Below are positions 3,007 through 35,971 of a stretch of DNA of 41,068 nt, piece by piece. The stretch is taken from IMG/VR virus record IMGVR_UViG_3300034072_002066, positions 1 to 41,068 of that record. One strand, written 5' to 3'. The translations under genes were made by a program, and so were the position numbers. Origin of the DNA: a virus. Under the pieces are notes generated by a model, which was given only the letters and a program-made list of their open reading frames with translations, made no database searches and was not told the DNA's origin. Numbering within the stretch: position 1 is the stretch's first letter; each line of letters opens with the position of its first letter.

Positions 3007-4115
3007 GAGCGTTTGGTACAACAATACGCGTAAGCAGCGCGCTAACTGTCAACATAGCCGTAACGATTACAGACGGGACAAACACTAGCGTTTACTCAGG
3101 TAGCGCTCTCTCCATTGCAGCGGGCGCGTATCGTACAGCTGACTATTGCAGCGCGCTAGCGTCAACAATCATCTCTTGGCTATCTGCACAGATCGCGCTT
3201 GACGCAAGCGTTGTAGCGACGGGTACGCCAATCGTAGATGTCGAGTTCATACCCGCAACAACCGCAGATGGAAGCCGCTTCAACCTCACACTCGTTTCGC
3301 CCGCTTGTGACTTCGTTGCTTCTTCTTTGCCCGCTTCTTTTGCTTCTGCTTCTATCAACAATGCAAACGGCGTTTTCAGCAACCTAGGGCTAGCCTACAG
3401 AGATCCGTCATTTCCCGCCCGTAGCGCTACGATAAGCAGCGGAGAAGCTCTCTTCTCTGGTTTGTTTCAACCGCGTTCAATTTTCGTTTTTGAGCGCTCT
3501 GAAATAGACGAAGGCGAAGACGATAGTCCCGCGCAATTTGTAGCGCATAAACTCGCAAGCGGCGCGCTAAGAACGTATGTTCTAGGCTCAAACAGAATCA
3601 GCAAGAGAAGATTGCGAGTTGTTGACTTAGACCCAGATGTTTGCGGTCCGCCTATTGAGGTAGCGCTTGCGACGGGAATCAACGTTGATAGAAACGAACT
3701 AACGATACCTGCAACCGTAACAACATCTTTGACGGGCATAGAGGCCGCGTTCTCTTTGCCTTCGCTGATTCCGATTGGCGCGTATATAGAGTTTCAAGGT
3801 TTTGTTGCGCGCGTTCGCTCTGTAACGTCAACGGCTATTCAGCTTTGCGAAACAATACCAACAACAATTTCTCTTAGCGCATACTCCTACATTCGCGTTG
3901 TAAGCGAAGTACACGCGCTATGGAGTGAGGCTTTGCGACTAGGAGAAATTCTCGTTTACGAAACAAGCGATACAACGGGAGAGATTCTCTGGTACCCGCA
4001 AAGCTATTGCTTGGCGGGCGACGAAACGCCGCGCTATTTTGGCGAGAGAAGAGACATCGGAAACGCTCTATATTCATACACTTTTGCAATGCTACGCCGC
4101 GACATAGAGGGCTAA
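2994..4115 (+). CDS. Unrecognised tail protein between chaperone and tape measure
   Basis: This 373-aa protein starts at ATG 2994, inside the end of the chaperone extension. It is rich in Ala, Ser, Thr and Ile, with likely beta-sandwich stretches and no signal peptide. Genes are rarely inserted between the chaperone and the tape measure, so its place is unusual; a tail-tip, distal-tail-like or tube-associated protein is possible. I cannot name a family. It ends five bases before the tape measure ATG, so the genes are co-transcribed. Confidence 0.8.
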   Translation: MQFLRAFGTTIRVSSALTVNIAVTITDGTNTSVYSGSALSIAAGAYRTADYCSALASTIISWLSAQIALDASVVATGTPIVDVEFIPATTADGSRFNLTLVSPACDFVASSLPASFASASINNANGVFSNLGLAYRDPSFPARSATISSGEALFSGLFQPRSIFVFERSEIDEGEDDSPAQFVAHKLASGALRTYVLGSNRISKRRLRVVDLDPDVCGPPIEVALATGINVDRNELTIPATVTTSLTGIEAAFSLPSLIPIGAYIEFQGFVARVRSVTSTAIQLCETIPTTISLSAYSYIRVVSEVHALWSEALRLGEILVYETSDTTGEILWYPQSYCLAGDETPRYFGERRDIGNALYSYTFAMLRRDIEG

Positions 4116-4120
4116 AATAT

Positions 4121-6637
4121 ATGGCTGTTCAAGTCAACGTTACAATCGATTTTAGCGAGGCAGCGAGGCAGCTTGCAGCTTTTCAGCAAGAGCTTGGGCA
4201 AGAGCTTGTTCAGTCTGCGAATCAATCTCAACAAGCTTTTCAGCGCGTAGCTAGCGAGGCAGCGCAGAACGTACAACGCCAAACCGCGCAGATCACGCAA
4301 GGCGTACAAGACGCTACAACGAGTGCAACCCGAAGCGCGGCGCGCGCCGGCAAGAACATGACTGAGGAGTTTTTGCGCGCTTTCGATCCCGACAAGATCC
4401 GCGCAGAACTTGAAGCGGCCGGGCTAGATGAGCAGCAGATTGATATCCTAATCAACACAACGCAAGCGCGCGCAGAAACACAAAAGCTCAAAGATGCAAT
4501 TGCGGGCGCGTTTGGTGAGGCTAGCGGGCTTGCGGAAGAATCTCTCAAACAGATCACGGCGCAAGCTGCAAGGGAAGTAGACCGCGCGGCGGGCAAGGTT
4601 AAGAGTGTTACAGAGATCGTTGACGGCGTAAGAGACTTGACCGAAGAAGTCAAGAGACTTGACGGCGCGGGCGGTGAGGCGGCTGAAAGCCTCGGAATGC
4701 TAGTTCTCAACGAGACGGTAGATAAGTTTGGAGATCTGAAAGATATATTTGAAAAGAGCGCGGGCGCTCTGTTTGGTCTATCCGAAGAAGCAGTAGACGC
4801 AACTGTGCGCGTTGCAGATCTTGCGGAGAAAGGCGCAATGGTAGGCGCGGCGTTTGGGCCTATGGGCGCGGCTATTGGCCTTGTTGCGGGCGGCGCGCTA
4901 GGCGCTCTTGTTGAGAGTTTGACCGCGTCAAGCAAGCAAGCAGAAGAAGCAGCGGCGGCTGCGGCAGAATATGAACAGCGCGTTGCAAGATTAAGCATTG
5001 CAGCGTCTGTAGCTGTTAGCCAAGAAGAACTAAACGCGGCGCTTGAAGAAGGGCGCAAAGCAGCAGAAGCAAACGCGGGCGCTGTCAAGATTCTTACAGA
5101 TGCGCAAGCCGCAGAACAGAAGCGCGTTGAAGAAGTACAAGCAAAGATTGCTAGTTACAAAGCAGAACTAGAATCTCTCAACAAAACACGGACAGAAGAA
5201 CTTTCTCTTCTTCAAGAAGAAGAAATCAGAAGCCGAAAGAATATTCTTACTTACGAAATATCAACATATCAGGTAGGGCTTTTAGACGAAGCAAAAGGCA
5301 AGCTAACAACCGCTACAAAAGCTCTCACAATCGCAGAGCAAGAACAGCAAAAAGTAGCTAGCATTCTAGCGCAAACGCAAGCAATACAGGCTATTGATAC
5401 GCTAGACGCGGCGAATGCAATTGAAGAACAATTGCTTATCATTACGCAAGGATCAAAGTTTGCGAAACAATCAACTTCCTCATTGGAAGCTGAACAAGCG
5501 CGTTTAATAAAAACGCTTGGCGTTTCTGCAAAAGAAATAGAGGGCTTAGGCCTTGCGAATATAGAACTTGCAGATTCTCAATTTGACGCTGTGGAAGCTA
5601 CGCAAGCGCAGAATGAAAACCAAGAACAAGCCAATATAATTACAGCTTACGCAAAGGCAGATCTTGCAAGGCTTGCAGAGATAACAAGCGAACTCTCTTC
5701 AAGAAAGCAAGCGCTTGCGTCTTCAACAAAGGCTTCCACCGCTGCAACAAAAGAAGATACAGCGGCAAAGAAGGAAGCTGAGCAGGCGGCAAAAGCGCTA
5801 GAGAAAGCAGAAGAAGTATACGCAAAAATACAAGAAGATCGCGCGGAGAAGAAACTTGCATATCAACGCCGCCTAAGAGATCAAGCGCAAGCTGACTACC
5901 TTGCAGAGCAAGCAGCTCTCAAGAAACGCGCAGAAGAAGAACTCAAACTTGCGCAAGAGATAGCAAAGAAGCGAGACGAAGCCGAACAATACGCGCGAAA
6001 GCTACAGAATGAACGCAAGCAAAAAGAAGCAGAAGACGCGCTAGCGCAAGCTGAACAGCTTCTTCGCCCGCTTGAAGATGTCACAACTACAATCTTTGAT
6101 ACGATTGTTGAGAACGTAGCAAACGGCGAGAAAGCTTTTGCCGGGCTAGGAATTGCGATAAGAGATAGCATAGTCAATACGCTCAAAGCTATGGGCAAAG
6201 AATACCTTGTCAAAGCGCTAGGCGAGACAGCGGAAGGAATTGCGTCGCTTGCGATTGGCGGCCCAATAGCGGGCGCATCTGCGGCGGCGCATTTCAAGGC
6301 GGCGGCGGGCTTCGCGGCGGCGGCGGTTGCAGCGGGCGCGGGCGCAGCTGCAATTGGCTCTGTAGGCGGCGCGGGCGGCGGCGGAGGTATACCAACAAGC
6401 GGCGCGGGCGGCGGCGGCGCAAACGCGGGCGGCGGCGGTTCTGCTAGCTTAGGCGGCGCTTCTTCGTCTGCGAGCTCGCAAGGCCCCGCTCCTACGGTTG
6501 TTGTTGACTTTCGCGGCGCTATGTTCCCGACAACAGATCTTCGCGCGGCGCAAGAGTTTGGTGCAGCCGTAGCGGGCTATATAGACGCGGCATTTCGTAG
6601 CGGCGCAACAACACAGCGCCCGATTTTTAGGCGGTAA
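4121..6637 (+). CDS. Tail tape measure protein
   Basis: This 838-aa protein is taken from ATG 4121, five bases after the previous stop. Longer in-frame starts lie inside the upstream gene. It is dominated by Ala, Gln, Glu and Lys heptad-like helices (coiled coil, about residues 20-240 and 270-670). An Ala/Gly-rich hydrophobic segment lies near residues 240-270, and Gly runs lie near residues 750-785. This layout is typical of tape measures, which set tail length and leave through the tail on DNA ejection. At about 0.15 nm per residue it predicts a tail of roughly 125 nm. It is the longest gene between the chaperones and the tip genes, as expected. Confidence 0.92.
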   Translation: MAVQVNVTIDFSEAARQLAAFQQELGQELVQSANQSQQAFQRVASEAAQNVQRQTAQITQGVQDATTSATRSAARAGKNMTEEFLRAFDPDKIRAELEAAGLDEQQIDILINTTQARAETQKLKDAIAGAFGEASGLAEESLKQITAQAAREVDRAAGKVKSVTEIVDGVRDLTEEVKRLDGAGGEAAESLGMLVLNETVDKFGDLKDIFEKSAGALFGLSEEAVDATVRVADLAEKGAMVGAAFGPMGAAIGLVAGGALGALVESLTASSKQAEEAAAAAAEYEQRVARLSIAASVAVSQEELNAALEEGRKAAEANAGAVKILTDAQAAEQKRVEEVQAKIASYKAELESLNKTRTEELSLLQEEEIRSRKNILTYEISTYQVGLLDEAKGKLTTATKALTIAEQEQQKVASILAQTQAIQAIDTLDAANAIEEQLLIITQGSKFAKQSTSSLEAEQARLIKTLGVSAKEIEGLGLANIELADSQFDAVEATQAQNENQEQANIITAYAKADLARLAEITSELSSRKQALASSTKASTAATKEDTAAKKEAEQAAKALEKAEEVYAKIQEDRAEKKLAYQRRLRDQAQADYLAEQAALKKRAEEELKLAQEIAKKRDEAEQYARKLQNERKQKEAEDALAQAEQLLRPLEDVTTTIFDTIVENVANGEKAFAGLGIAIRDSIVNTLKAMGKEYLVKALGETAEGIASLAIGGPIAGASAAAHFKAAAGFAAAAVAAGAGAAAIGSVGGAGGGGGIPTSGAGGGGANAGGGGSASLGGASSSASSQGPAPTVVVDFRGAMFPTTDLRAAQEFGAAVAGYIDAAFRSGATTQRPIFRR

Positions 6638-17717: not shown

Positions 17718-18063
17718 CGCTTGCTTGCCCGCGCGCCCTGTTATGATTGACAAACAAACAATCTCTACCGAAACGCCCGCGCGCTTGAAGATGCAAGGCA
17801 AAGCGGCTGCAATACCGAAAGGCGCTATCGTACAGAATGACAGCGTTTGCCTAGCGCCAGAAGACGCTAGTGCGATTGCAGCGCAAAAGACGTATATGCA
17901 AGGCTTGATCTTGCCTGCTTACGAGTTAGGCCGCGCAGAAGCAAGCGCCGTATTGATGCAAGCGCAAGCAAGAGAACAAGCGCTTGTAAGATATATCGCA
18001 ATCGCAGGCGGCCTTGTTCTTGGCGCGGCGGCTACAATCACAATCGAAAGGCTTGCAGAATGA
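17656..18063 (+). CDS. Lipoprotein, o-spanin candidate (Rz1-like)
   Basis: Starting at ATG 17656 gives a 135-aa protein with a basic n-region (KRTRQTLARR), a hydrophobic core (LVLSTMLLTSA) and a lipobox LTSAC, so Cys22 should be lipidated. A start at 17704 would leave too short a signal. The first 62 bases overlap the i-spanin candidate in a different frame. Unlike lambda Rz1, it has a long middle part and a hydrophobic segment close to its C-terminus (IAIAGGLVLGAAATITI), so it may span a membrane again and is an unusual o-spanin or a different lysis lipoprotein. It overlaps the endolysin start by four bases. Confidence 0.6.
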   Translation: MKRTRQTLARRLVLSTMLLTSACLPARPVMIDKQTISTETPARLKMQGKAAAIPKGAIVQNDSVCLAPEDASAIAAQKTYMQGLILPAYELGRAEASAVLMQAQAREQALVRYIAIAGGLVLGAAATITIERLAE

Positions 18064-18914
18064 CGTTGAAGAAGGGCGAGAAAAGCTTAGAGGTACAGAA
18101 GCTGCAACATCTCTTGCTAGCGCTAGGTGAACGCTTGCCGCGGTTTGGTGCAGACGGCGCGCTAGGAGAAGAGACGCTTGCAGCGGTAGAGCATGCGCTA
18201 CGCGGAATTACAGGCGCGGGAATAGCCGCAGATGACGTTGTTAGCGCAGACGAAATAGAAGCGCTGCAAGAGCTCTTTGAGCGGCGGCAAGAAAGCAACG
18301 TTGCATTCCCTAGCGCGTTTCTAGCTTGCGTCTCAGATCACGCCTTGCCAAAACCTAACCTATGCAAGCCGCGCCCATGGGCGCAAGTTGATAGCATTGT
18401 ATTGCACCAAACCGCTTGCGTTCTTGGTGAGGAACCGCGCCGTTGGTACGATATCCCAATTCATGTTGGTATAACTCGCGCGGGGCTAGTGCTATGGCTA
18501 AACAAGTTTGATATCAACTTGCCTCATGCAAACGGTTTCAATTCGCGGTCAATAGGGATTGAGATTGACGGCGCATTCGCGGGCGTAGAAGGCGACAAGA
18601 AAACCTTCTGGACGGGCGGCCCATACAAAGAGCCAATGTCAATTACGCCCGCGCAGGTTGATTCTGCGCGTCAAGCCGTGAAGTTTATTGTAGATATATG
18701 CAACGCAAACGGCGCGCGAATCAAACATATCTTTGCGCATAGACAGAGCAGTTCTCAGCGCGTTTCGGATCCCGGCTCGAAAGTTTGGCAAGAGATTGCG
18801 CTATGGACAGAGAAGACGCTAGGCTTGTCTGCGGGCGGTGAGGAAGGCTATTGCATAGGCGGCGGGAAAGCTATTCCGAAAGAATGGGATTCGCGGCGTT
18901 CAGCAAGCTACTGA
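18060..18914 (+). CDS. Endolysin: peptidoglycan-binding domain plus N-acetylmuramoyl-L-alanine amidase
   Basis: This 284-aa protein has an N-terminal PG_binding_1-like domain (about residues 5-75, with FGADGALGEETLAAVE) and an Amidase_2-type domain (about 105-245). Zinc-ligand candidates are His116 in IVLHQT, His227 in FAHRQS and Asp237 in the SDPG motif; His135 in HVGI is another conserved-type residue. It should cleave the amide bond between N-acetylmuramic acid and L-alanine. There is no signal peptide, so release through the holin is expected. Its stop overlaps the 3' end of the converging zinc-finger gene by 15 bp, where the two arms of the genome meet. Confidence 0.93.
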   Translation: MTLKKGEKSLEVQKLQHLLLALGERLPRFGADGALGEETLAAVEHALRGITGAGIAADDVVSADEIEALQELFERRQESNVAFPSAFLACVSDHALPKPNLCKPRPWAQVDSIVLHQTACVLGEEPRRWYDIPIHVGITRAGLVLWLNKFDINLPHANGFNSRSIGIEIDGAFAGVEGDKKTFWTGGPYKEPMSITPAQVDSARQAVKFIVDICNANGARIKHIFAHRQSSSQRVSDPGSKVWQEIALWTEKTLGLSAGGEEGYCIGGGKAIPKEWDSRRSASY

Positions 18915-19478
18915 TTCTTGTTCTTCTTCTTCTTGGTATTGTTGATCTTCTCTTTTGCATGCTTTTGAGCAATATACTTTTTGATACATTGCAGAGAAGT
19001 TTTCTCCGCACCAAAGACATTCCAAGACAGTCTTCTGCGTTATATTTATACTTCTCCAATCTTGCGTTGTTTTTTTTGTTCTGCATTCTTTCGAGCAATA
19101 TATTTGTGTTTTGCAATTTTGTCTAAACAACTTGTTGCAAAGCAGGCAGTTTTTTTCTATCAGAACAACGCCCCGATCTTGCTTTCTTCTTGTTATAGCA
19201 GATTGATTGTAGCAAATAGCAGAGCAGTATTTTTTCTGCGCTTCTTCTTGCGGCCTGCGACAAGCAAACACTTTTTGACAAACTAAGCATTGCTTGCTTG
19301 CCAGTTCGTTCTTTTGCGCTTTGGCAACTCGTTTCTTTTTTTTGTATGTTTTGTTTCTGCAAGAGACAGAGCAATATATTTTTCTGGCGGCAAGAAATGC
19401 CGTGTTGACGGTAAAAGATTTTTTGCAAAATAAACAAGCTCGCTCAATTGAAGAAATAAGAGATTGAGATATATTCAT
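18900..19478 (-). CDS. Four-finger zinc protein (tandem C-x2-C...C-x3-C units)
   Basis: This 192-aa protein consists of four Cys4 units: C15/C18/C36/C40, C64/C67/C85/C89, C111/C114/C128/C132 and C154/C157/C170/C174. Each has the CxxC-x(3)-F knuckle and a YCS-x2-C second half, typical of treble-clef or FCS/MYM-type fingers and of the finger part of phage HNH nucleases. No HNH catalytic residues are present. Linkers are Lys/Arg-rich, which suggests nucleic-acid binding; the C-terminus is acidic (Glu/Gln). It starts three bases after the stop of the five-finger gene and is the last gene of the minus-strand arm. Function is unknown. Confidence 0.85.
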   Translation of the reverse strand: MNISQSLISSIERACLFCKKSFTVNTAFLAARKIYCSVSCRNKTYKKKKRVAKAQKNELASKQCLVCQKVFACRRPQEEAQKKYCSAICYNQSAITRRKQDRGVVLIEKNCLLCNKLFRQNCKTQIYCSKECRTKKTTQDWRSINITQKTVLECLWCGENFSAMYQKVYCSKACKREDQQYQEEEEQESVAC

Positions 19479-19481
19479 TTG

Positions 19482-20228
19482 TCAATCTTTCGTATCTGTA
19501 GTGTATTCTTCTTCTTCTCTGGAATATGCGCTGTCTTCTTTGCGGCAAATCATAGAGCAATGCTTGCTAGTTACAAGCGCTGCAATGTAATCTTCTCCGC
19601 ACCAAGCGCATTCTTTTTGCATCCTATCTGCTATAGGTATTGTGTTTGCAATTGCATATTCATACGCTCTTTTCTTCGCGAGCTCTTTTGAGCAGGCTTC
19701 TGAACATGTCTTGCGATCTCTGCGAGTTGGCTCGAAATCTTTTGAGCAATAGGCGCAAAGCTTTTTTTTGCCTTGCAATAAAAGCATGCGCTCTTTTTTG
19801 CGCTTCTCGCCGCCTATAGCGACAGAGCATTTTTCTGAGCAATACTTATGCCTTCCCGCTGCTTTCGGATGTGGAATAAATAGCGTTCCACATCTTGCGC
19901 ATTGCGGGTTGTGATTGACGATCGGCGAAGGTATATGGTTAGGATTTGCTCTTTTGCGCGTTGCATAGACGCTGCATTTTCTATTGCAATATCTTTGCCT
20001 TCTTCTGCTTAGCGCGTTTGCTGTAAAGGATTGCTTACACCAAGAGCAAACCCTTGTTTCACCTTCTACTTTTGCGGAGGGCTTTTTTTTAGCTCTACAC
20101 TCTACAGAGCAATACTTTTTATAGTCTCTTGTAAAAGCAGTTGTAACGACAAAGACCGCATTGCAAGCAATGCAATTGCGGTCTATTGGCGCAATTATAC
20201 CGCCTCTTTGTCTTGGCGGTTTATTCAT
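19482..20228 (-). CDS. Five-finger zinc protein (tandem C-x2-C...C-x3-C units)
   Basis: This 248-aa protein has five Cys4 units: C19/22/40/44, C61/64/81/85, C110/113/130/134, C158/161/175/179 and C207/210/224/228. Each shows CxxC followed by a short loop with Phe/Tyr, then YCS- or TCS/HCS-x2-C. Linkers are basic and the C-terminal 20 residues are acidic. It starts inside the end of the three-finger gene (8-bp overlap), so translation is probably coupled. A catalytic domain is absent; binding to DNA, RNA or a host protein is possible. T-rich composition and few CTAG sites set it apart from the structural genes. Confidence 0.87.
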   Translation of the reverse strand: MNKPPRQRGGIIAPIDRNCIACNAVFVVTTAFTRDYKKYCSVECRAKKKPSAKVEGETRVCSWCKQSFTANALSRRRQRYCNRKCSVYATRKRANPNHIPSPIVNHNPQCARCGTLFIPHPKAAGRHKYCSEKCSVAIGGEKRKKERMLLLQGKKKLCAYCSKDFEPTRRDRKTCSEACSKELAKKRAYEYAIANTIPIADRMQKECAWCGEDYIAALVTSKHCSMICRKEDSAYSREEEEYTTDTKD

Positions 20229-20721
20229 ATTGTTGTCTCAGTTTCCATGCGCGCATATATTCCCGCTTCTTCTTTTTGTATTCTTCTCTTTCTTCTTGCG
20301 TCATTCTCGCAAGCCTTCGCGCTCTTGAAGCAGCGTCATTAATCAACTGATTCTTTCGTTCGCATTCGCCCTCGCAAACCAGTTTGGTTGCTTGCTTCCA
20401 TTGCACAACAAAGCTCTTGTTGCATATCTTGCAAGCTCTCGTTTCTTGCCAATATACTTCTGTTTTCAAGCGTAGCTTTGATCTCTGCAAGCCTTCCATA
20501 TAGCTGCAATCACCAGAACAAAATATATTCTTGTGACTGATTGGCGCAAAAGCCTTGCTACAATGCGCGCATTTTCTGCTTGTTGGTTTGGGCGCAACTG
20601 GTTTACGCCCTCTTTTCTGCATATAAATATTGTTTCTCTGTTTGCTGCAAGCCGCTGAACAGCAAAGAACGGGCGACCTTCTTGGCACAAAGCTAGCGCC
20701 GCATATGATACAATTTTTCAT
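20221..20721 (-). CDS. Three-finger zinc protein with basic C-terminal helix
   Basis: This 166-aa protein has three Cys4 units: C4/C7/C21/C25, C51/C54/C68/C72 and C97/C100/C116/C120. They belong to the same finger class as the two downstream genes. The last 45 residues (MTQEEREEYKKKKREYM region) form a strongly charged helix like the linker that follows zinc fingers in phage HNH endonucleases, but no HNH motif follows. Its ATG overlaps the stop of the 73-aa gene by four bases. It begins the three-gene finger array. Confidence 0.87.
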   Translation of the reverse strand: MKNCIICGASFVPRRSPVLCCSAACSKQRNNIYMQKRGRKPVAPKPTSRKCAHCSKAFAPISHKNIFCSGDCSYMEGLQRSKLRLKTEVYWQETRACKICNKSFVVQWKQATKLVCEGECERKNQLINDAASRARRLARMTQEEREEYKKKKREYMRAWKLRQQYE

Positions 20722-20939
20722 ATCTTGCGCCCTTTCTCAACAATCCAAAAAAACTCGCGGTTGCCTTCTTCGCCGCAGAGCTCTACGCCCATAGTTTTGT
20801 AAGAACTAAACGCAAGCGCCCATTGCATCGTATTGATCATGCGAACCGCTTCTCCGCGGCTATGGGCGTATTCTACCCGTATGTTGGTTTGCTTCTCTTT
20901 CGCGTTGCGTACAATCAAACTGTATATTCTGTTGTTCAT
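20718..20939 (-). CDS. Small unrecognised protein in the zinc-finger operon
   Basis: This 73-aa protein is taken from the ATG at 20939, which overlaps the stop of the 58-aa gene by four bases; a longer start at 20951 would lie deeper in that gene. It has mixed alpha/beta character, a FFWIV strand near the C-terminus and one Cys. The four-base overlaps on both sides make it a real gene of the operon. I do not recognise a family. Confidence 0.7.
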   Translation of the reverse strand: MNNRIYSLIVRNAKEKQTNIRVEYAHSRGEAVRMINTMQWALAFSSYKTMGVELCGEEGNREFFWIVEKGRKI

Positions 20940-21112
20940 CGTGTACCCCAATAGAGTTCTGCGGCGAAGTCAAACGCCGCAACGAAGCTATCAAAAATTG
21001 CGATTACGCGCGTTTCTTGGCGCGAGACGTATCTGAGTTCAAACTTCCGCGCAACGCCGTCTAAACGCGAAATAACGTAGCGCCCTAACCTTGCCTTCTT
21101 CTGCGCGGTCAT
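20936..21112 (-). CDS. Small basic protein, 58 aa
   Basis: This short gene reads ATG at 21112 to TGA at 20936. Its ATG overlaps the stop of the 194-aa gene by four bases, and its own stop overlaps the next ATG by four bases, so it fills the gap in a run of ATGA junctions. The N-terminal half is Arg/Lys-rich (KKARLGRY) and the C-terminal half hydrophobic and aromatic (FVAAFDFAAELYW). It may be an amphipathic helical protein. No family is recognised. Confidence 0.72.
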   Translation of the reverse strand: MTAQKKARLGRYVISRLDGVARKFELRYVSRQETRVIAIFDSFVAAFDFAAELYWGTR

Positions 21113-21693
21113 TCTTCCGTAGCCTCGCTCTCTTCGTTACGACGGCGAGAAACGCGCATTCGTTGAGACGAGAAATATCTTTGTTCAATGTCGCAAGCGG
21201 CGTTGATATATCGCAGGCGCGTTTCTTGTTGCAGAGAAAGAAGTTCTTCGCCCATAGTCGAAAGCGTGTAATCACCAAGAATCTTGAACAACAAAGCAAA
21301 GCGATCGGGGCGTTCAAGAAGCGCGTTCTCTTCGTATTCGTCAAAATGCAATTCTTCATTTGTGATTGTGGCAACCGCAATCATTTTATTTGGTGCAAAC
21401 ACTTCGACCCATGCGACATCTTGACGAACAATAAAACGATATCGCTTTGATGTTGTTGTATGAACAAGCTGGTTTTCTTCTTCAGCCCAGCCTTCTAGCC
21501 CGCGAAGCGGTATAGGCAAGTTCTCGTTGCGCGCCGCGCCCCGTTGCCTCATTTCGGCATTGATTGTGAAGATATCTTTTTTAATCCAGTCACCGGCATT
21601 TTCTTCAATTGCGCAACCATGATTAAGAATATAGGCTGCCTTAAGCAGCAAGATTGACGGGGTGAGTTCGGTTCCGGTTTTGTAAGATATCAT
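21109..21693 (-). CDS. Unrecognised early protein, 194 aa
   Basis: This gene starts at ATG 21693 behind CGGAGAAAG, the same leader used by several other minus-strand genes. The protein is soluble, rich in Glu and Arg, and ends in a basic then acidic tail (RVSRRRNEESEATEE). A hairpin stands between it and the upstream 360-aa gene. It leads the run of four-base overlaps into the zinc-finger genes, so it is in the same operon. No domain is recognised. Confidence 0.75.
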   Translation of the reverse strand: MISYKTGTELTPSILLLKAAYILNHGCAIEENAGDWIKKDIFTINAEMRQRGAARNENLPIPLRGLEGWAEEENQLVHTTTSKRYRFIVRQDVAWVEVFAPNKMIAVATITNEELHFDEYEENALLERPDRFALLFKILGDYTLSTMGEELLSLQQETRLRYINAACDIEQRYFSSQRMRVSRRRNEESEATEE

Positions 21694-21726
21694 AGTGCTT
21701 TCTCCGTTTTTGTTGCGATTGAAGAG

Positions 21727-21757
21727 AGGCGCGGCGACCGCAACAACCGCCGCGCCT
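21727..21757 (-). promoter_or_regulatory. Intercistronic GC-rich hairpin
   Basis: AGGCGCGGCG (21727-21736) and its perfect complement (21748-21757) form a 10-bp stem with an 11-nt loop in the gap before the 194-aa gene. On the minus strand it is followed by CTCTTC rather than a real T-run, so partial termination, RNA processing or mRNA protection are all possible. Confidence 0.65.
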
Positions 21758-21767
21758 ATATTGATTG

Positions 21768-22850
21768 CTAGTGCATCAAACCGTAGTAGCTAACTTCCTC
21801 ACCGAGATCGTCAACCTCATAGTCATCTGCACCCCAAGAAACAACGCGGGCTTCTTCGCCGTCTCGCCAAGAGAATTCAACGCTAGGCTGCAAGTTGATT
21901 TTGATATGGGCGGGTATGGGCTTGCTTGCAGAGAGAAGAGAGAACAGCCAAACAAGGGCGCGAAGGCGCTTGCTTGTCTTTGGTAGTACGCAAGCGGGAG
22001 AGACGGTAAACGAGAAGTCATCTGCGAGCTCTCCCACAAACAATGCGCTGCTCTTGCCGGTCTTCTTGTTGCCCGTCGCTACGCTTACAAGAATTGCGTT
22101 TACGCGCACTGAGACGCAATAGGCGTATGTATTTCCGCTTTCGGTATTCTCAAGCGTAAAAACCACGTTCTCGCTCTTGCCGTAGCTACGAACAAGGCGC
22201 TTTGCCTGTTCAATCTTGCCAAGAATTGTTTGCGCTTCTTCTTGGCGCTTTGCGCTTTCTTCTGCAATGCGCGCCGCGCGCTCTTTTGCAAACATCAATT
22301 CCATTTCGTAATCAGCTTGAATTGTTTCGCGGGCAGAAATCGAAAGAAGGAAGTAGCTAAGAAAATCAGAAACGCTTCTGCCCGCGTTGTTTGCGATTGC
22401 AATGATCTTGTCTGCGGTGATTGTTTCAAAGCGCCAATCAATCCATATGGAAGCTTTGATTCTCATTACCAAAGAAGACACAAAGTAGTTGCGCATGCAG
22501 ATCAGAAGCAGCTTCTCTTCGTTGGTTGCAGCTCTTGCGAATGCTTCTGCAAAAGCGGCGATCGTCTCGTTGACAAGGCGGGCTTGAACGTCAAGCGCCC
22601 ATACGCGGGCTTTGTCGCTAAGAGTATCCGGGCGGGCGATCTTCAAGTTTGCAACAACAACTTCTTCTGCAACAACCACGATCTCTTCTTTGGCGATCTC
22701 TGCAACAACTTCTTCTTGCTTGCTAGCGCCTTCTTGGCAAGCGCTGCAAGTCACTACCCAACGCCCATTTCCACGGGTAAGAGATCCTTCGTTTGCGGCT
22801 ACGCGGGCTTTGCAAGATTTACAGTCTGCGGCGAATTTGTTTGTTTTCAT
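21768..22850 (-). CDS. Unrecognised protein with N-terminal zinc ribbon
   Basis: Taken from ATG 22850 behind GAAGGAG, this is a 360-aa protein. Residues 10-37 hold two CxxC pairs (CKSC and CSAC) that look like a zinc ribbon. Glu-rich (about 40-70) and helical parts follow, and the C-terminal part is beta-rich with a VVSWGADDYEVDD stretch. It is the first gene after the promoter/operator at 22895-22935. It could be a nucleic-acid or protein-binding early protein; no family is recognised. Confidence 0.72.
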   Translation of the reverse strand: MKTNKFAADCKSCKARVAANEGSLTRGNGRWVVTCSACQEGASKQEEVVAEIAKEEIVVVAEEVVVANLKIARPDTLSDKARVWALDVQARLVNETIAAFAEAFARAATNEEKLLLICMRNYFVSSLVMRIKASIWIDWRFETITADKIIAIANNAGRSVSDFLSYFLLSISARETIQADYEMELMFAKERAARIAEESAKRQEEAQTILGKIEQAKRLVRSYGKSENVVFTLENTESGNTYAYCVSVRVNAILVSVATGNKKTGKSSALFVGELADDFSFTVSPACVLPKTSKRLRALVWLFSLLSASKPIPAHIKINLQPSVEFSWRDGEEARVVSWGADDYEVDDLGEEVSYYGLMH

Positions 22851-22894
22851 TTTGGCTTCTCTCCTTCGTTGCTTTCTCCTCACAACGTAAGATT

Positions 22895-22935
22895 CTTGTA
22901 CCAAACCTTGTTTTGTTGCGTCAATAAAAATTGAC
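22895..22935 (-). promoter_or_regulatory. Minus-strand promoter with palindromic operator (copy 3)
   Basis: On the minus strand the -35 is TTGACG (22919-22924), the spacer is 18 bp and the extended -10 is TGG followed by TACAAG (22895-22900). The palindrome GTCAAT-N4-ATTGAC (22920-22935) overlaps the -35. The leader then holds a CGTTG/CAACG hairpin with GGAGAAAG in its loop and ends in the SD of the 360-aa gene. The same design occurs at 25866-25906 and 26414-26454. Confidence 0.85.
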
Positions 22936-22980
22936 AAGCAATGTAAAAAAAAGATTTTGAGGAAGCTCAAATCCGCATGG

Positions 22981-23466
22981 TTACAAGGTTTCCGCTTGTT
23001 GTGATTCTTGCAGATCGCGCCCGGAACGAGCGGCGTTTATGATTTCGGAGATCTGTTCAGCGCGTTTTTTCACCGCGCGACGTACCGCCTTCTGCTCTTT
23101 TGACGGGCTTTCGCTTGCGAGAGAAGCGGAGATCTCTGCAAGCCGCTGCAAGGCTAGGCTACGAAACGGGGCGAAGGCGCGCGCGTCAAGAGTTGGTAGT
23201 CTTTGCGCATAGACGATCGTTGCAGACGAGACGCGCCAAAGCGCGGCGCGCTGCGTATTGCTACATTTTCCGCGCAAGAGATCGGCTGCAAGAGCTCTCG
23301 CTTTTGCAACAAGATGCAGACTGCTTCCGCTTGCAAGTTCTTCGAGACTGATTCCGTATGCAAGGCAAACGGCGATCTCAACTTCTGCGATTGTTTGGGC
23401 TGTTGTTGCGTCTATTGGCGCGGGCTTTCTCTCTTCGAGCCGCGCTGTAAGCGATCTTTTTATCAT
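22981..23466 (-). CDS. DnaA domain IV-like DNA-binding protein
   Basis: From ATG 23466 this is a 161-aa protein; an in-frame TTG at 23523 would add 19 residues. Residues about 28-90 follow the C-terminal DnaA helix-turn-helix pattern: a VCLAYGISLEELAS segment, then a VAKARALAADLLR helix, then a VSSATIVYAQRL recognition-type helix resembling the DnaA HTVLHA region. The ATPase part of DnaA is absent. Stand-alone domains like this may bind DnaA boxes to recruit or block host initiation, or act as regulators. It sits beside a RecT-like gene, in the replication/recombination part of the arm. The C-terminus is a charged helix. Confidence 0.65.
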   Translation of the reverse strand: MIKRSLTARLEERKPAPIDATTAQTIAEVEIAVCLAYGISLEELASGSSLHLVAKARALAADLLRGKCSNTQRAALWRVSSATIVYAQRLPTLDARAFAPFRSLALQRLAEISASLASESPSKEQKAVRRAVKKRAEQISEIINAARSGRDLQESQQAETL

Positions 23467-23569
23467 AGTCAGTTTGCCAATTCTCGCCCACGTATGGGCG
23501 TATGATGCTTTCTCTATCTGCAAGGGCGCGGCGAAGAAGCGAGATCTCTTCGCCGCTATACGAAGTCAT
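23378..23569 (-). CDS. Small protein, 63 aa, overlapping the DnaA-like gene
   Basis: This frame runs from ATG 23569, eight bases after the stop of the RecT-like gene, to 23378, and overlaps the DnaA-like gene by about 89 bp in another frame. It has a helical, acidic N-terminal half and a strongly basic C-terminus (RREKARANRRNN). The close spacing favours a real gene, but the long overlap and lack of a strong SD leave doubt. Confidence 0.5.
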   Translation of the reverse strand: MTSYSGEEISLLRRALADRESIIRPYVGENWQTDYDKKIAYSAARREKARANRRNNSPNNRRS

Positions 23570-23576
23570 CTTGCTA

Positions 23577-24464
23577 TCAATCTGTTTTTGCGTTTGGCGT
23601 AGTTGGTACGGGTTGAGACGCGCGATCTTCACCACTAGCAAGCGCACCTGATTCCGAACGCGGGCGAAACAAATTCTTTTCGATTTCGGATTTCTCCTTT
23701 CGCGTTGATACGAAGAGAGAACGCACCGCGTCTTTCACAATCGGATGTAGCGCCATAATCTGCGCGCCTAACCGATCTAGCTCTGCAACCGTTGCAGCGG
23801 CGAGAATTGCGTTCTTGACGGCTTCAATCTGTATTGTAGCTTCTTCTTCGTCTTCTTTGCTTAGCCCGGCGGGAAGGGCGGGTTTTGTTTGTTCTGCGGG
23901 CAAGGCGGGTTTGATATCTACAACGACGGCGGGCTTGACGATCTCTGCTCTTGCGGGCGCGGCTTCTGCGGGTACGGGCGAGAGATCGTCAAGTTCGTCT
24001 GGCGTATAGAGACCTAGCACGACATCAGGAAAATACGCGCGGCAAGCGGCCGCCGTAGCGCGGGCGCGTAGCATTGCTTTCGTATGTCTTTGCCAATTGG
24101 GGCGGTTCGCAAGCCCGGCTTTGCGCGCTTCTTCAATCGTGTAACTGTACGGCGGCTTGACGATCCCGTTTCTCGCAATCTGCACAACACACTTTTCGTC
24201 GGTGAGTTCAAGAATCTCATAGCCTGTACAATGCCCGCTCTTGTATGCAAGCGCCAATAGCAGATCCGCGGACAGAGTTGGCTTGCCTTCTACAACTGAG
24301 ATAGACCGCAAAGCTTGCAGCGGCAAGAGCCCTAGCTCTCGCCCCGTCATGATGATCACAACGGCGGCCTCAGGTGTTTTGACGCTAGCGGGTAGCAAGC
24401 CTGATTTGATAAGCGTTGCAGCCAAAGAGAGATCGGCTTGTAGAATAGAGAGTTCAGTTGACAT
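23577..24464 (-). CDS. RecT-like single-strand annealing protein (candidate)
   Basis: From ATG 24464 (CGGAGAAAG upstream) this is a 295-aa protein. Residues about 28-140 match the pattern of a phage family annotated as RecT-like recombinase: MTGRELGLLPLQALRSI, then VVEGKPTLSADLLLALA, later EEARKAGL, an aromatic W-Q segment, MLRARATAAACRAYFPDV and LGLYTPDEL. These proteins anneal single strands during recombination-dependent replication. The C-terminal half is Ala/Pro-rich and probably disordered, with a charged helix. A hairpin precedes the SD. No partner exonuclease is visible in the window. Confidence 0.7.
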   Translation of the reverse strand: MSTELSILQADLSLAATLIKSGLLPASVKTPEAAVVIIMTGRELGLLPLQALRSISVVEGKPTLSADLLLALAYKSGHCTGYEILELTDEKCVVQIARNGIVKPPYSYTIEEARKAGLANRPNWQRHTKAMLRARATAAACRAYFPDVVLGLYTPDELDDLSPVPAEAAPARAEIVKPAVVVDIKPALPAEQTKPALPAGLSKEDEEEATIQIEAVKNAILAAATVAELDRLGAQIMALHPIVKDAVRSLFVSTRKEKSEIEKNLFRPRSESGALASGEDRASQPVPTTPNAKTD

Positions 24465-24482
24465 TGTGCTTTCTCCGTATGG

Positions 24483-24511
24483 GCGGGGCGTAGTCATCTG
24501 CTACGCCCCGC
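24483..24511 (-). promoter_or_regulatory. Perfect 11-bp hairpin upstream of the RecT-like gene
   Basis: GCGGGGCGTAG (24483-24493) pairs perfectly with 24501-24511 around a 7-nt loop. It lies between a 22-codon frame and the RecT-like SD on the minus strand. No T-run follows, so a role as a simple terminator is doubtful; an attenuating or processing element is possible. Confidence 0.7.
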
Positions 24512-24616: not shown

Positions 24617-25000
24617 TTAGTTCAGAGTATGCGCTTGCGTCAAAACCCACTCGCAATCTTTTGCGTGTTCTTCTGCAACGAGATCCCAACCGATCGTTGC
24701 AGCCTGCTTGCCGTCAAGCGGCGTTCCAAGGTGATCGCAATACAGGCAAGCTTCAACCTCGCAATTCTCTTGCCATTCCATTTCGCTAGCGCAACCGCTG
24801 CAAACGTCGCTTTCTTCTGTGTAGAAACACTCGCAGATCGGGCAAGCCTGCTTTGCGCTATTGGCGCTTTTGACGGCGCAAACATCGCAAGTCAAACCAT
24901 GGGCGATCTCGCCGCAAACAATGCAATCTTGCGGGCGCGTAGCCTCGCAGATGTCACAAATTTCTTTGGTGCTTTCGGTATCGCAGATCTCGCAGAACAT
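24617..25000 (-). CDS. Cys-rich zinc protein, seven CxxC pairs
   Basis: This 127-aa protein starts behind AAGGAGAAAG. It contains seven CxxC pairs (CEIC, CDIC, CIVC, CDVC, CPIC, CSGC, CLYC) within its first 90 residues, spaced like double zinc ribbons, and is otherwise acidic. It differs from the YCS-finger family at the end of the operon. Zinc-ribbon chains of this sort may bind RNA polymerase, nucleic acid or simply zinc. No catalytic motif is visible. Confidence 0.75.
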   Translation of the reverse strand: MFCEICDTESTKEICDICEATRPQDCIVCGEIAHGLTCDVCAVKSANSAKQACPICECFYTEESDVCSGCASEMEWQENCEVEACLYCDHLGTPLDGKQAATIGWDLVAEEHAKDCEWVLTQAHTLN

Positions 25001-26537: not shown

Positions 26538-27038
26538 TTAGGCGAGAGGTACCCAGAGAGATCCGCGGGCGCGAAAGGTATCGATGAAGAGATCGATCTG
26601 TTCTCCATGATAGACAAGCGCAGACGGGAAGGGCGCGCCGCTTGTAGCGTTTCCGAAACGAAGGCGGCCGCGCCAGAAAAGAACGGCGGCCGCGTTGGTA
26701 GTCAGCGTCTCAAACCACGCGGTATCAACGCGCGCGGGTACGAGCGAAACGATCTCCGCGCCCTTGCCTGCTTCTATTGCAGCCTTCTTAGCCCATTTTG
26801 AGATCTCTCTACCGTACGGCGGGTTGCAGAAGACAAGCCCGCAATCTTGCCAAGAAGAAGCAAGCCCGTCCTCACCGCGATCTTTGCGGTATGATTTGCG
26901 CGCTAGCGTAAGCGATCCCGCGTTGTCGCAAGGATCAAGCCCGATCTCTCCGAAGCCCGCGCGCAACGCGTCAAGAACAACGGCGGGCGTATTCCATGTT
27001 TCGTCTGCAGAAGACATCATAGCCGCGCGGTTTTTCAT
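26538..27038 (-). CDS. Phage DNA N6-adenine methyltransferase (Dam-like)
   Basis: This 166-aa protein matches the phage N-6-adenine methyltransferase family: ETWNTP near residue 12, IGLDPCDN near 32, a DGLASSW segment near 57, the catalytic NPPYG motif near 72 (variant of DPPY), and a LVPARVDTAWF segment near 98. Size is usual for this single-domain family, which typically methylates A in GATC-like sites and protects phage DNA from host nucleases. Its ATG overlaps the stop of the 297-aa gene by four bases. No matching restriction enzyme is seen. Confidence 0.9.
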   Translation of the reverse strand: MKNRAAMMSSADETWNTPAVVLDALRAGFGEIGLDPCDNAGSLTLARKSYRKDRGEDGLASSWQDCGLVFCNPPYGREISKWAKKAAIEAGKGAEIVSLVPARVDTAWFETLTTNAAAVLFWRGRLRFGNATSGAPFPSALVYHGEQIDLFIDTFRARGSLWVPLA

Positions 27039-29834: not shown

Positions 29835-29903
29835 ACTGTATCAAAAACACACACAAATTTGTGTAGATATTCAAAAAAGACAACAAGTTATCGGAGAAAC
29901 TTA

Positions 29904-31157
29904 ATGTCTTACGTTAACATTCTGCAAGGTGATTGCAGGGCTCTTCTTGCCAATCTCAAAGACAACTCAATTGACAGTATCGTTACAGATCCGCCGTATG
30001 AACTCGGGTTTATGGGCAAGCGTTGGGATTCCTCAGGTATAGCCTACGATCTCTCAGTTTGGCGCGAATGCCTGCGCGTTCTCAAACCGGGCGGACATCT
30101 GCTCTCTTTCGGTGGTACAAGAACTTATCATCGCATGACTTGCGCTATTGAAGATGCAGGCTTCGAGATTAGAGATTGTATCATGTGGGTTTATGGAAGC
30201 GGCTTTCCGAAAAGCCACGATGTAAGCAAAGCCATAGACAAGGCGGCGGGGGCAGAGCGGGAGGTGGTTGGGCCTGCTGCAGTTGGCGGCAAGGGGCAAG
30301 GCAATGCATACGGAACAATCACACGGCCTCTGGCAACCGCTCCCGCTACCGAAGCCGCGCGCCAATGGCAAGGGTGGGGGTCTGCGCTTAAACCGAGCTG
30401 TGAACCAGTTGTTGTAGCTCGCAAGCCTCTTATCGGTACCATTGCAGAGAACGTGCTAGCCTATGGTACGGGCGCGCTGAACATAGACGGGTGTAGGATA
30501 GAGCATACAACTGTTGTTGGTGCAAACATCTCTGTCAATACGCATCTTAGGCAATCTGTGCGCGCAGGAAAACGTGTAAATATTACATCTTTTGCACTAC
30601 CTGAAAGAGAGATACCCGTGAGTCCCCTCGGCCGTTGGCCCGCCAACCTCATTCACGACGGGTCGCAAGAGGTGATTGAGTTGTTTCCAGAAACGGGGCC
30701 TAGCAAAGCTATCAAAGGCGGCGCCAATAGAAGGGCCTATGAACAAAACGAAATAACTAACCCTAGCGGGTGGAAAGAAGTCGGTAGAATTCGGAAGGAC
30801 GAAGGATATGACGATAACGGCGGTTCCGCCGCCCGCTTCTTCTATTGCGCCAAAACAAGCCCCTCGGAACGTGGCGACAATCGACATCCTACCGTCAAGC
30901 CGATCTCTCTGATGCGATATCTATGCAGGCTTGTAACGCCGCCTAGCGGTGTAGTTCTTGATCCTTTTGCGGGTTCAGGTACAACGCTCGTTGCAGCGCG
31001 GCTAGAAGGCTTCTCTGCTGTTGGTTGTGAGTTGCAGCAAGAACATGTTGATATAATCAAACGACGGCTTGACTTGCCCGCGGAAGCTTACGCAGAAGAA
31101 CCGCGCGAAGAAGAGAACCCGAAACCGCCAAAGAGAGAGCAGCTCAAACTCTTTTGA
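29904..31157 (+). CDS. Site-specific DNA methyltransferase (beta-class, N4/N6)
   Basis: From ATG 29904 (TCGGAGAAAC upstream) this is a 417-aa enzyme. The catalytic DPPY motif is at residues 29-32 and the AdoMet-binding DPFAGSGTT motif at about 353-361, the order of beta-class amino-methyltransferases. Residues about 175-300 form a large insertion that probably includes the target-recognition part. The C-terminus is charged (EEPREEENPKPPKREQ). It should methylate an adenine or cytosine amino group in a short site, probably to protect the genome. No cognate endonuclease is adjacent. The MazG-like gene follows after 11 bases. Confidence 0.92.
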   Translation: MSYVNILQGDCRALLANLKDNSIDSIVTDPPYELGFMGKRWDSSGIAYDLSVWRECLRVLKPGGHLLSFGGTRTYHRMTCAIEDAGFEIRDCIMWVYGSGFPKSHDVSKAIDKAAGAEREVVGPAAVGGKGQGNAYGTITRPLATAPATEAARQWQGWGSALKPSCEPVVVARKPLIGTIAENVLAYGTGALNIDGCRIEHTTVVGANISVNTHLRQSVRAGKRVNITSFALPEREIPVSPLGRWPANLIHDGSQEVIELFPETGPSKAIKGGANRRAYEQNEITNPSGWKEVGRIRKDEGYDDNGGSAARFFYCAKTSPSERGDNRHPTVKPISLMRYLCRLVTPPSGVVLDPFAGSGTTLVAARLEGFSAVGCELQQEHVDIIKRRLDLPAEAYAEEPREEENPKPPKREQLKLF

Positions 31158-33306: not shown

Positions 33307-33433
33307 GGACGGTTCCCGCAAGCTTGGCGGCCCGTACGAAACCAGAGAAGAAGCGGCGAAGAGAGAGCAGCTCATTCTTCGTATAATTGAATTGAAGAAG
33401 CGCGCAGCAGATGCAAAAAGAGCAGATTCGTAA
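33266..33433 (+). CDS. Small basic protein with LSKDGSRKLGGPY motif
   Basis: GTG at 33266 follows AAAGG by eight bases and gives 55 aa; a GTG at 33215 would reach further into the HTH gene. The pattern GFYLLSKDGSRKLGGPYETREEAAKRE recurs (here in two parts, residues 8-20 and 21-34) in small phage proteins near terminase and ParB-like genes. It overlaps both neighbours. The tail is a Lys/Arg helix. Its role is unknown. Confidence 0.6.
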   Translation: MIVKRQEGFYLLSKDGSRKLGGPYETREEAAKREQLILRIIELKKRAADAKRADS

Positions 33434-33899
33434 CCGTATCATCGCAAGCGAGAACGTCTCTCCGAAAGACGTGAAGAAGAACGTTCTCAACTTCCGCAAA
33501 CATCCGAAGAAGCAGCGAGACGCACTAGCCGCAACACTGCAACAAATCGGGTGGATTCAAGATGTGATCGTCAACAAAAGAACGAATACGTTGATTGACG
33601 GACATCTTCGTTTGCAGATTGCGATTGAGAACAAAGAAGCAACGATCCCGGTAAAGTATGTTGACTTAGACGAAAGCGAAGAGAAGCTTGCGCTTGCTAC
33701 TTTTGACCCAATTTCTGCTCTTGCCGAAACGGAGAAGCAGACGCTTGACGCGCTTCTTAGGGAGCTACCAGACGCGCTCCCTACTGAAATACAAGAGATG
33801 CTTTCTTCGCTTGCAGATATAAAAATTGACGGTGAGAGTTCTGCCCCAAAGAATGAGGCAAAGAAGAAACTCTGCCCCAATTGCGGTTGTGAAGTATGA
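33411..33899 (+). CDS. ParB/Srx-like domain protein with C-terminal zinc knuckle
   Basis: This 162-aa protein matches the ParB N-terminal domain: NFRKHPKKQRDALAATL (about 26-42), GWIQDVIVNKRTNTLIDGHLR (two parts, 47-56 and 57-67), and VKYVDLDESEEKLALAT. The GHLR (usually GHxR) motif at about 64-67 is the nucleotide-binding or hydrolysis site of the fold. Phage versions stand near terminase or methyltransferase genes and their role is unclear; nuclease and CTPase activities are known in the family. The end CPNCGC may bind zinc. Confidence 0.8.
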   Translation: MQKEQIRNRIIASENVSPKDVKKNVLNFRKHPKKQRDALAATLQQIGWIQDVIVNKRTNTLIDGHLRLQIAIENKEATIPVKYVDLDESEEKLALATFDPISALAETEKQTLDALLRELPDALPTEIQEMLSSLADIKIDGESSAPKNEAKKKLCPNCGCEV

Positions 33900-34225
33900 A
33901 TTGCAAGATCTGCGGTGTTGAGATTCGCGCGCCAAAGAAATCCTATTGCGGCAAAGAATGCGCCGTGCAGGGCAATCACAACAACGCGCTTGCAGCTTAC
34001 GAGAGAATTACACCGTCAGAGCGTTCTTGCACATATTGCAACGCCTTGTTCGCCGTCTCTCGCAATCGCAAGATCTGCGGTGCAGAAGCTTGCAAGAGGT
34101 ATCTCAAACAAGCGCAAAACAGAAGATACAACGTGAGGTATATGCAAGAAGACTACGCGGTGTATATTGCAAAGCAGCGCGAATATAAACGCCGCTATCA
34201 AAACAGGCTGGCCAATGCCGCGTAA
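33896..34225 (+). CDS. Two-finger zinc protein, relative of the finger-array genes
   Basis: This 109-aa protein has C3/C6/C18/C22 and C45/C48/C61/C66 fingers of the CxxC...YC-x3-C type, followed by a basic helix (RRYNVRYMQEDYAVYIAKQ) like the linker in phage HNH nucleases. No HNH motif is present. It resembles the three genes at 18.9-20.7 kb but lies on the opposite strand beside the terminase, where HNH nucleases that help packaging are often found. Thus it may be a decayed HNH enzyme or a packaging accessory. It overlaps both neighbours. Confidence 0.78.
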   Translation: MNCKICGVEIRAPKKSYCGKECAVQGNHNNALAAYERITPSERSCTYCNALFAVSRNRKICGAEACKRYLKQAQNRRYNVRYMQEDYAVYIAKQREYKRRYQNRLANAA

Positions 34226-34754
34226 AAAGAAGCCGCAAGAAACGCCCGAAGAGAAGGCGCATCGTGAGAAGGTAGAAGAGCTCGCAAGAACAGAGCCGTT
34301 TGACGGGCGGCATGATGTTCGTTTCGGTAAGAAGGTTTCCTACACAAGACTGAGACGGGACGCTATACAGAAGCGAATTTGTGACGCTCTCTCACTAGGT
34401 TGTTATATCAAAGAAGCCGTAGCCTACGCGGGCATTCATTATAATACTTATGCAAATTGGATAAATAACAGCAAACAATTTCGTGAGGCCGTTCACGAAG
34501 CGATCGCTAAAAGTGAGACGTTACTTCTTGCAGAGATTCGCCGCGATCCTTCTTGGCAAGCAAAGGCGTGGATTCTTGAACGTCGCTTTCGAGAGCGTTG
34601 GGCAAGAGAAGTCAAGACAGACGCGGACAACATACCGCGTACAATTACCCTAACATGGGCCGGCGAGAACGGCGTTGATAGGGTAATTGAAGCAACGCCG
34701 CAACCCGCGCAAGAAGAACAGTCAAACACGCAAGCAGCGCAAGACGAAGAATGA
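34215..34754 (+). CDS. terS: Terminase small subunit (TerS)
   Basis: From ATG 34215 this is a 179-aa protein. Residues about 52-90 carry a helix-turn-helix (QKRICDALSLGCYIKEAVAY, then GIHYNTYANWINN) of the type used by small terminase subunits to recognise the packaging site, followed by a helical middle (AIAKSETLLLAEIRRD) suited to ring formation. The acidic end could contact TerL. It overlaps the TerL gene by four bases. Confidence 0.85.
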   Translation: MPRKKKPQETPEEKAHREKVEELARTEPFDGRHDVRFGKKVSYTRLRRDAIQKRICDALSLGCYIKEAVAYAGIHYNTYANWINNSKQFREAVHEAIAKSETLLLAEIRRDPSWQAKAWILERRFRERWAREVKTDADNIPRTITLTWAGENGVDRVIEATPQPAQEEQSNTQAAQDEE

Positions 34755-35971
34755 ATCTGCGCTTGCCTACACTGCATAGCGGTCAGCTCGAAATCTTCGA
34801 GAGTGAGGCGCGAAACCGCGTAGTCATCTGCGGCCGCCGTTGGGGCAAGACATACTTAGGTTGTGCAGAAGCAATACGCGCATGCTTACAAGCAAAGCAA
34901 GTTTGGTGGTTAGCTCCTACACACGCCGTTTCTTCGCTAGCGTGGGAGCAGCTCAAACTTCTTTTCACGCCGCTTGTTAAGCTAGGCCTAGCAGAAATCC
35001 AAGAAAGCAAAAAACGCATCGTTTCGCTAGGAGGCTCAATCACCTGTAAGAGCGCGGAGTTGTACGATAACTTACGCGGGGCGGGGCTTGATCTTGCTAT
35101 CTTCGACGAAGCCGACTTCATAGAACATCAGGCATGGGCAGAAGCAATACGGCCTACGTTGTCAGATCGGCGCGGGCGCGCTCTCTTCTTGACTACGCCA
35201 AACCCGCGCTTGCGTAATTCTTGGATACAAAAACTGTATCAACGCGGGCAGATGGCTTCTGCAAATTGGCGTTCGTTCTCTCGCCCGTCATGGACAAACC
35301 CGTTTCTTTCTCCCAGTGAGATTGAAGACGCGCGGCTTGACTTGCCTAGCGTAACCTTTCGTACAGAATACGGCGCGGAATTTGTTTCCGAAGACGGCGC
35401 AAAAATAAAAGAACAATGGTTGCAGGCTACGCAAGCAATACCGCCTAGCGGGCTTGACATAGCGATCGGCGTTGACCTTGCAATCTCTCTGTCACAAGAC
35501 GCTGACTATACCGCCGTTGTTGCGCTAGGGAGAAGCAAAGACGGGCGCTTGTACGTTCTTGGTGCAAGCCGCGGGCGCATGCCGTTTGATGAGATCTTGC
35601 GGTTTATCAAATCTTTTGCGGAGAGATACAAAGCGCGCGTTGTAGGAGTTGAGAACGTTCAGTTTCAAGCGGCGGTTGTGCAAGAGCTCTTACGCAATAC
35701 ATCGCTCCCAGTTGTTGGTATACGCGCAGACAAAGACAAGCTTACGCGTTTCTTGCCCGTTGCAGCGCGCTATGAACAGCGGTTAATATATCATGCGCAA
35801 AGCTTGCCAAACGAGTTCTTAGACGAGTTGCTTTCGTTTCCTGAGGTAAAGCACGATGACTTCGTGGACGCGCTTTCTACCGCGTACCAAGCGCTAAACT
35901 TCGTCGCTTTCTCTTCGGTACACGCAAGTTCAGGAAACAAGCGCGGACATCTTTCGGGGTTCATCAGATGA
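34751..35971 (+). CDS. terL: Terminase large subunit (TerL)
   Basis: This 406-aa protein has the N-terminal ATPase domain with Walker A GRRWGKT (28-34) and Walker B LAIFDEAD (115-122), and an STTPNP-like LTTPNP coupling motif near 150. The C-terminal RNase H-type nuclease domain shows an acidic GVDLAIS segment near 238, VENVQ near 297 and HDDFVDALS near 377. It powers DNA entry into the prohead through the portal and cuts the genome. The length is short but normal for this family. It overlaps the portal gene by four bases. Confidence 0.96.
   Translation: MNLRLPTLHSGQLEIFESEARNRVVICGRRWGKTYLGCAEAIRACLQAKQVWWLAPTHAVSSLAWEQLKLLFTPLVKLGLAEIQESKKRIVSLGGSITCKSAELYDNLRGAGLDLAIFDEADFIEHQAWAEAIRPTLSDRRGRALFLTTPNPRLRNSWIQKLYQRGQMASANWRSFSRPSWTNPFLSPSEIEDARLDLPSVTFRTEYGAEFVSEDGAKIKEQWLQATQAIPPSGLDIAIGVDLAISLSQDADYTAVVALGRSKDGRLYVLGASRGRMPFDEILRFIKSFAERYKARVVGVENVQFQAAVVQELLRNTSLPVVGIRADKDKLTRFLPVAARYEQRLIYHAQSLPNEFLDELLSFPEVKHDDFVDALSTAYQALNFVAFSSVHASSGNKRGHLSGFIR

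Follow-up and report, generated by a model that had tools for sequence, protein, structure and literature searches.

What role a bacterial virus could have for three adjacent genes that encode tandem Cys4 fingers and no catalytic domain, and whether such genes are remnants of nucleases or proteins retained in their own right, is the question raised by the locus at 18900-20721. The window, i.e. the whole stretch of DNA analyzed, comprises the 41,068 bases of a complete virus, with 127 terminal bases identical at both ends (a 127-bp terminal repeat). The genome codes for terminase, portal, capsid, and tail proteins, an endolysin, a RecT-like annealing protein, and several DNA methyltransferases; its capsid protein is no more than ~29% identical to the top-ranking proteins of the phage collection. 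The features relevant here are the following:

18060..18914, plus strand: endolysin (amidase), convergent with the array operon and overlapping its end by 15 nt
18900..19478, minus strand: gene 3 (P0001), 192 aa, four fingers (residues 15-40, 64-89, 111-132, 154-174), acidic tail, net charge +21
19482..20228, minus strand: gene 2 (P0002), 248 aa, five fingers (residues 19-44, 61-85, 110-134, 158-179, 207-228), acidic C-terminal tail, net charge +26
20221..20721, minus strand: gene 1 (P0003), 166 aa, three Cys4 fingers (residues 4-25, 51-72, 97-120), net charge +24
20718..24497, minus strand: upstream section of the leftward run of genes that includes the arrays (20718-20951, 20936-21112, 21109-21693, 21768-22970, 22981-23523, and the RecT gene)
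23577-24497, minus strand: RecT-like annealing protein, in the same leftward run as the arrays
33896..34225, plus strand: fourth array-only gene, 109 aa, two fingers and a basic, helix-like tail
34167-34754, plus strand: terminase small subunit as listed, true start after 34211
34751-35971, plus strand: terminase large subunit (terminase region 34215..35971)

The preliminary description had presented the locus as three overlapping minus-strand genes with 3, 5, and 4 fingers. Strand, place, and finger numbers hold: a fixed finger motif occurs exactly three, five, and four times in genes 1, 2, and 3, and residue-shuffled versions of the proteins contain on average 0.04-0.14 fingers and at most two (5000 shuffles each). 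Gene 1 overlaps the preceding gene by 4 nt (ATGA) and genes 1 and 2 share 8 nt, but genes 2 and 3 are separated by 3 nt; the overlap does not extend to the whole set, which is more accurately described as closely coupled. The proposed pattern CxxC...YCS-x2-C was partly too narrow, as the C-x2-C ... C-x3-C frame is invariant in all 12 fingers but YCS is exact in only six, the others showing CCS, FCS, TCS, HCS, YCN, or VCE. All three proteins are strongly basic, with basic linkers, as had been claimed, and a Cys content of 8-10%; in gene 1 the fingers are followed by a basic tail of ~45 residues, helix-like by sequence. The GC content of the array genes (0.37-0.44) is the lowest among 32 genes measured, which is consistent with a recent arrival. 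Genes 2 and 3 are paralogous to each other (E 1e-20): their first fingers are best mutual matches, as are their last fingers, the acidic tails are common to both, and both genes keep open frames and all finger cysteines. Because third-codon-position identity in the first-finger segment is only 0.42 with the Cys frame kept in both copies, this duplication is probably old.

Two further observations concern the rest of the genome. At 24617-25000 (minus strand), a small acidic protein is encoded (127 aa, 13% Cys, charge -19, weak double zinc ribbon match), which differs from the arrays in charge. Genes related to DNA methylation, of Dam-type, second-methyltransferase, and ParB/methyltransferase-like kinds, are located at 26538-27038 (minus), 29859-31157 (plus), and 33411-33899 (plus), and their number suggests extensive modification of the genome.

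The fold of the fingers was approached by the two routes that had been recommended at the outset, a Pfam search of each finger and structure prediction. The former does lead to treble-clef and FCS-type families, yet with weak matches only. The latter, carried out for gene 3 with AlphaFold2 (mean pLDDT 85.6, pTM 0.39), yields a hairpin followed by a helix starting near the second Cys pair, repeated four times. As modeled, the fingers are thus treble-clef-like, composed of a zinc-knuckle hairpin and a helix bearing the second Cys pair, and they presumably bind zinc. Searching predicted viral proteins with this model by Foldseek returns 58 matches at E < 0.001 (best 5e-10), consisting of multi-finger phage proteins that include HNH endonucleases, WhiB-type proteins, and proteins automatically annotated as CTCF-like. 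C2H2 fingers, which made up most of the matches when solved structures were searched with a finger profile, were discarded because the alignments extended over the first 10-15 residues only and matched merely the CxxC knuckle.

Against the PDB, Foldseek finds no match to the P0001 model at E < 0.001; single modules resemble YacG in gyrase complexes (4tma) in short local alignments (TM by target <= 0.62, rmsd 3.6) that agree with a treble clef. Together with the Pfam matches of some array-only relatives to YacG, this resemblance could be taken to mean that the fingers bind proteins, either as inhibitors of host enzymes with a fold like that of this DNA gyrase inhibitor or as counter-defense factors. 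Such a role is very improbable: the structural matches have a Foldseek E of ~1, YacG (PF03884) is absent among the Pfam matches of the three array proteins at E up to 5, and the high positive charge favors nucleic acid as ligand. YacG shares the fold of a single finger, but it has one finger only and acts on gyrase.

Profile searches connect the arrays to phage nucleases. The family phrog_1271 ("HNH endonuclease") is matched by gene 2 (6.2e-19), gene 3 (3.6e-14), and gene 1 (1.3e-7), in each case along the part of the profile that represents the fingers, and in gene 1 the match covers the fingers and the start of the tail. Pattern scans of IMG/VR for tandem fingers gave a sample of at least 144 distinct proteins with three or more fingers; among the matches listed, at least 74 have three, at least 39 have four, and at least 31 have five to nine. 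Likewise among the matches listed, phrog_1271 is hit by 128 of the 142 tandem-finger proteins scanned. The Pfam domains in this sample, counted with overlaps, are HNH (at least 63), HNH_5 (at least 29), HNH_3 (at least 28), DUF559 (at least 11), Vsr (at least 4), endonuclease VII and TnsA-like (at least 3 each), GIY-YIG (at least 2), and WhiB (at least 1). As array proteins are mostly fused to HNH, and some to DUF559/Vsr, GIY-YIG, or WhiB, finger arrays can be regarded as a widespread accessory module of phage nucleases, and since phages usually join them to DNA-cutting domains, array-only genes resemble the DNA-holding half of such an enzyme standing alone. Individual examples of arrays joined to other domains include WhiB (L205:220-903), GIY-YIG (L093:2217-3125), and, by eye, a LAGLIDADG-like domain (L156:3017-3709).

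A DNA search of the array region against phages gives no match; as single queries against IMG/VR, P0002 finds one weak locus and P0001 three (L423-L425), of which L423 and L424 are of HNH type by eye, and P0001 matches nothing in bacterial genomes. Aligning unlike array proteins leaves no block conserved enough for scanning. Reading of the matches in L364, L324, and L313 showed them to be of low complexity, and they were set aside; most of the 119 pattern matches in bacterial genomes lack multi-finger frames.

The absence of a catalytic domain, already asserted in the preliminary description, is borne out by Pfam and PHROG profiles, which detect none in any of the three proteins. No HNH domain is found in them by Pfam, PF01844 and PF13392 are absent from the whole record, and whole-record searches of the HNH, HNH_3, GIY-YIG, and DUF559 families detect no such domain in the genome. 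A partner nuclease of the HNH, GIY-YIG, or DUF559 kind acting in trans was rejected on these grounds, as were frameshifted HNH or transposase genes, of which there are no remnants.

Proteins built only of such arrays, three in a row, had been called new. This stands for the arrangement: the sampled contigs, with their limited flanks, contain no further instance of three array-only genes side by side. It does not stand for the architecture, given that arrays of 3-9 fingers are common and that array-only proteins occur in other phages. A minority of the tandem-finger proteins lack a nuclease, and individual Pfam scans (E up to 0.01) of ten candidates, nine from viral contigs and one from a phage record, reveal no nuclease domain in any of them. 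Array-only proteins are encoded at L365, L383, L239, L275, L197, L119, L367, L261, and MT836260, and two in bacterial genomes (L521 and L486) appear array-only by reading of the sequence. In these proteins ~3-7 fingers make up the whole protein, as here, but they occur singly or as the L239 pair, whereas the present phage has three in succession and a fourth at the terminase. The L239 pair consists of two paralogues on the same strand (372-1160 and 3556-4215), 2.4 kb apart, followed by a RusA-like and a sigma-like ORF (by eye). The array-only arrangement is therefore uncommon, not unique. Papers on array-only phage finger proteins were not found among the open-licence literature.

A motif scan of the whole 41,068-base record yields one further finger gene, the fourth array-only gene, which immediately precedes the gene for the small terminase subunit. 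The TTG start listed for this subunit is wrong, because the close relative described below has an in-frame stop at 34209-34211. In finger 2 of the fourth protein, the second Cys pair is spaced as C-x4-C. The only close relative found (contig 3300042453_005489, 94-95% identity) lacks the three-gene array region and carries a 97% identical copy of the fourth gene, which differs by 7 synonymous and 3 non-synonymous changes (Q25R, S41T, T46I; every finger Cys kept). With a dN/dS of 0.11, calculated from these small numbers, and its cysteines preserved, the fourth gene indicates that purifying selection appears to act on at least one of the array-only proteins of this phage. The terminase gene of many phages is adjoined by a gene for an HNH endonuclease (PMC5304195); here, a finger protein lacking a nuclease is found in a neighboring position.

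The favored reading, with a probability of roughly 0.55, is that the three genes encode stand-alone treble-clef-like arrays which descend from nuclease arms and are retained as nucleic-acid-binding proteins, most likely for DNA. The main rival, which we regard as unlikely, holds that they are debris of mobile HNH homing endonucleases, with the nuclease parts deleted and the functionless arrays on their way out. A foreign base composition would suit such an origin, as would fingers that are the same as in HNH nucleases; truncated HNH genes are also common elsewhere (56 of 268 in Skunavirus; PMC12724721), and on visual inspection gene 1 has a basic tail similar to the linker preceding HNH in relatives, although BLAST matches of the tail reach only E 0.03 or worse. 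Speaking against decay are three intact and closely coupled frames, 12 of 12 fingers complete, two old paralogues that are both intact, no HNH remnant in the genome, and purifying selection on the sister gene. The outcome named initially as a refutation, HNH fragments broken by frameshifts, is half borne out: the fingers are of the HNH-nuclease type, but frameshift debris is absent.

For the retained binding proteins, the following course of events can be envisaged. The arrays would descend from the targeting arms of phage HNH nucleases of the phrog_1271 kind, the nuclease domain having gone, and would be kept, probably as a limited group of DNA-binding proteins of the phage, whose genes close the recombination gene run. 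Binding of nucleic acid, most likely DNA, would proceed via successive fingers and basic linkers, and the proteins may thereby be bound at sites in the phage or host genome, serving as regulators or accessory factors. Nucleic-acid binding, also put forward in the preliminary description, is the likeliest predicted activity in view of charge, kinship, and the modular AlphaFold2 model. Treble-clef fingers can bind RNA or protein too. Post-transcriptional regulation by RNA binding is highly improbable here: the finger profile does match the ribosomal protein eL24, an rRNA-binding treble clef (E 0.007), but the relatives are DNA nucleases and nothing RNA-specific was seen.

An improbable alternative would make the arrays NinG/Rap-like recombination accessory factors that bind branched or single-stranded DNA and aid the RecT system encoded in the same gene run. 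The N-terminal finger part of gene 1 matches NinG (PF05766) with 26.9 bits against a Pfam cut-off of 25.4, and the L239 array-only pair lies near an ORF that resembles the RusA resolvase by eye. This match, however, is limited to profile positions 3-48, i.e. 46 of the 193 NinG positions, the remainder of NinG is absent, and genes 2 and 3 are not listed.

Phages commonly carry arrays of 3-9 different treble-clef-like modules, for the most part as nuclease arms, and papers on their recognition rules were not found among the open-licence literature. Natural arrays free of nuclease are the simplest proteins for learning the contacts of single fingers, and the present set is tractable for asking what phage finger arrays recognize. 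The locus is partly explained: the phage finger module is known, and the nuclease-free, multi-gene form is new. A bolder and rather doubtful extension regards the four proteins, with their different fingers, as a modular set of sequence-specific DNA binders, i.e. domesticated arms of homing nucleases and a prokaryotic counterpart of polydactyl zinc-finger regulators. If specific DNA is bound, the arrays would represent a bacterial-virus equivalent of multi-finger eukaryotic regulators and possibly a modular binding scaffold.

Among known systems, the phrog_1271 HNH endonucleases (e.g. of the Gordonia phages GAL1 and IDyn) share tandem Cys4 fingers, similar spacing, and basic linkers with the four proteins, but end in an HNH domain that the latter lack. 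Tandem fingers of the same type without a nuclease are also found in a family of ~130-150 aa proteins with two fingers (L097, L121, L122, L129, L168-L171, L193, L198, and others), which differ by an N-terminal helix-turn-helix that is missing here. With respect to mode of action, although not of descent, the nearest analogy is I-TevI, a GIY-YIG enzyme with one zinc finger that serves both as nuclease and as transcriptional autorepressor: its DNA-binding part represses without cutting (PMC2988022), and the arrays may act much like this targeting part of a phage nuclease, which is able to function by binding alone.
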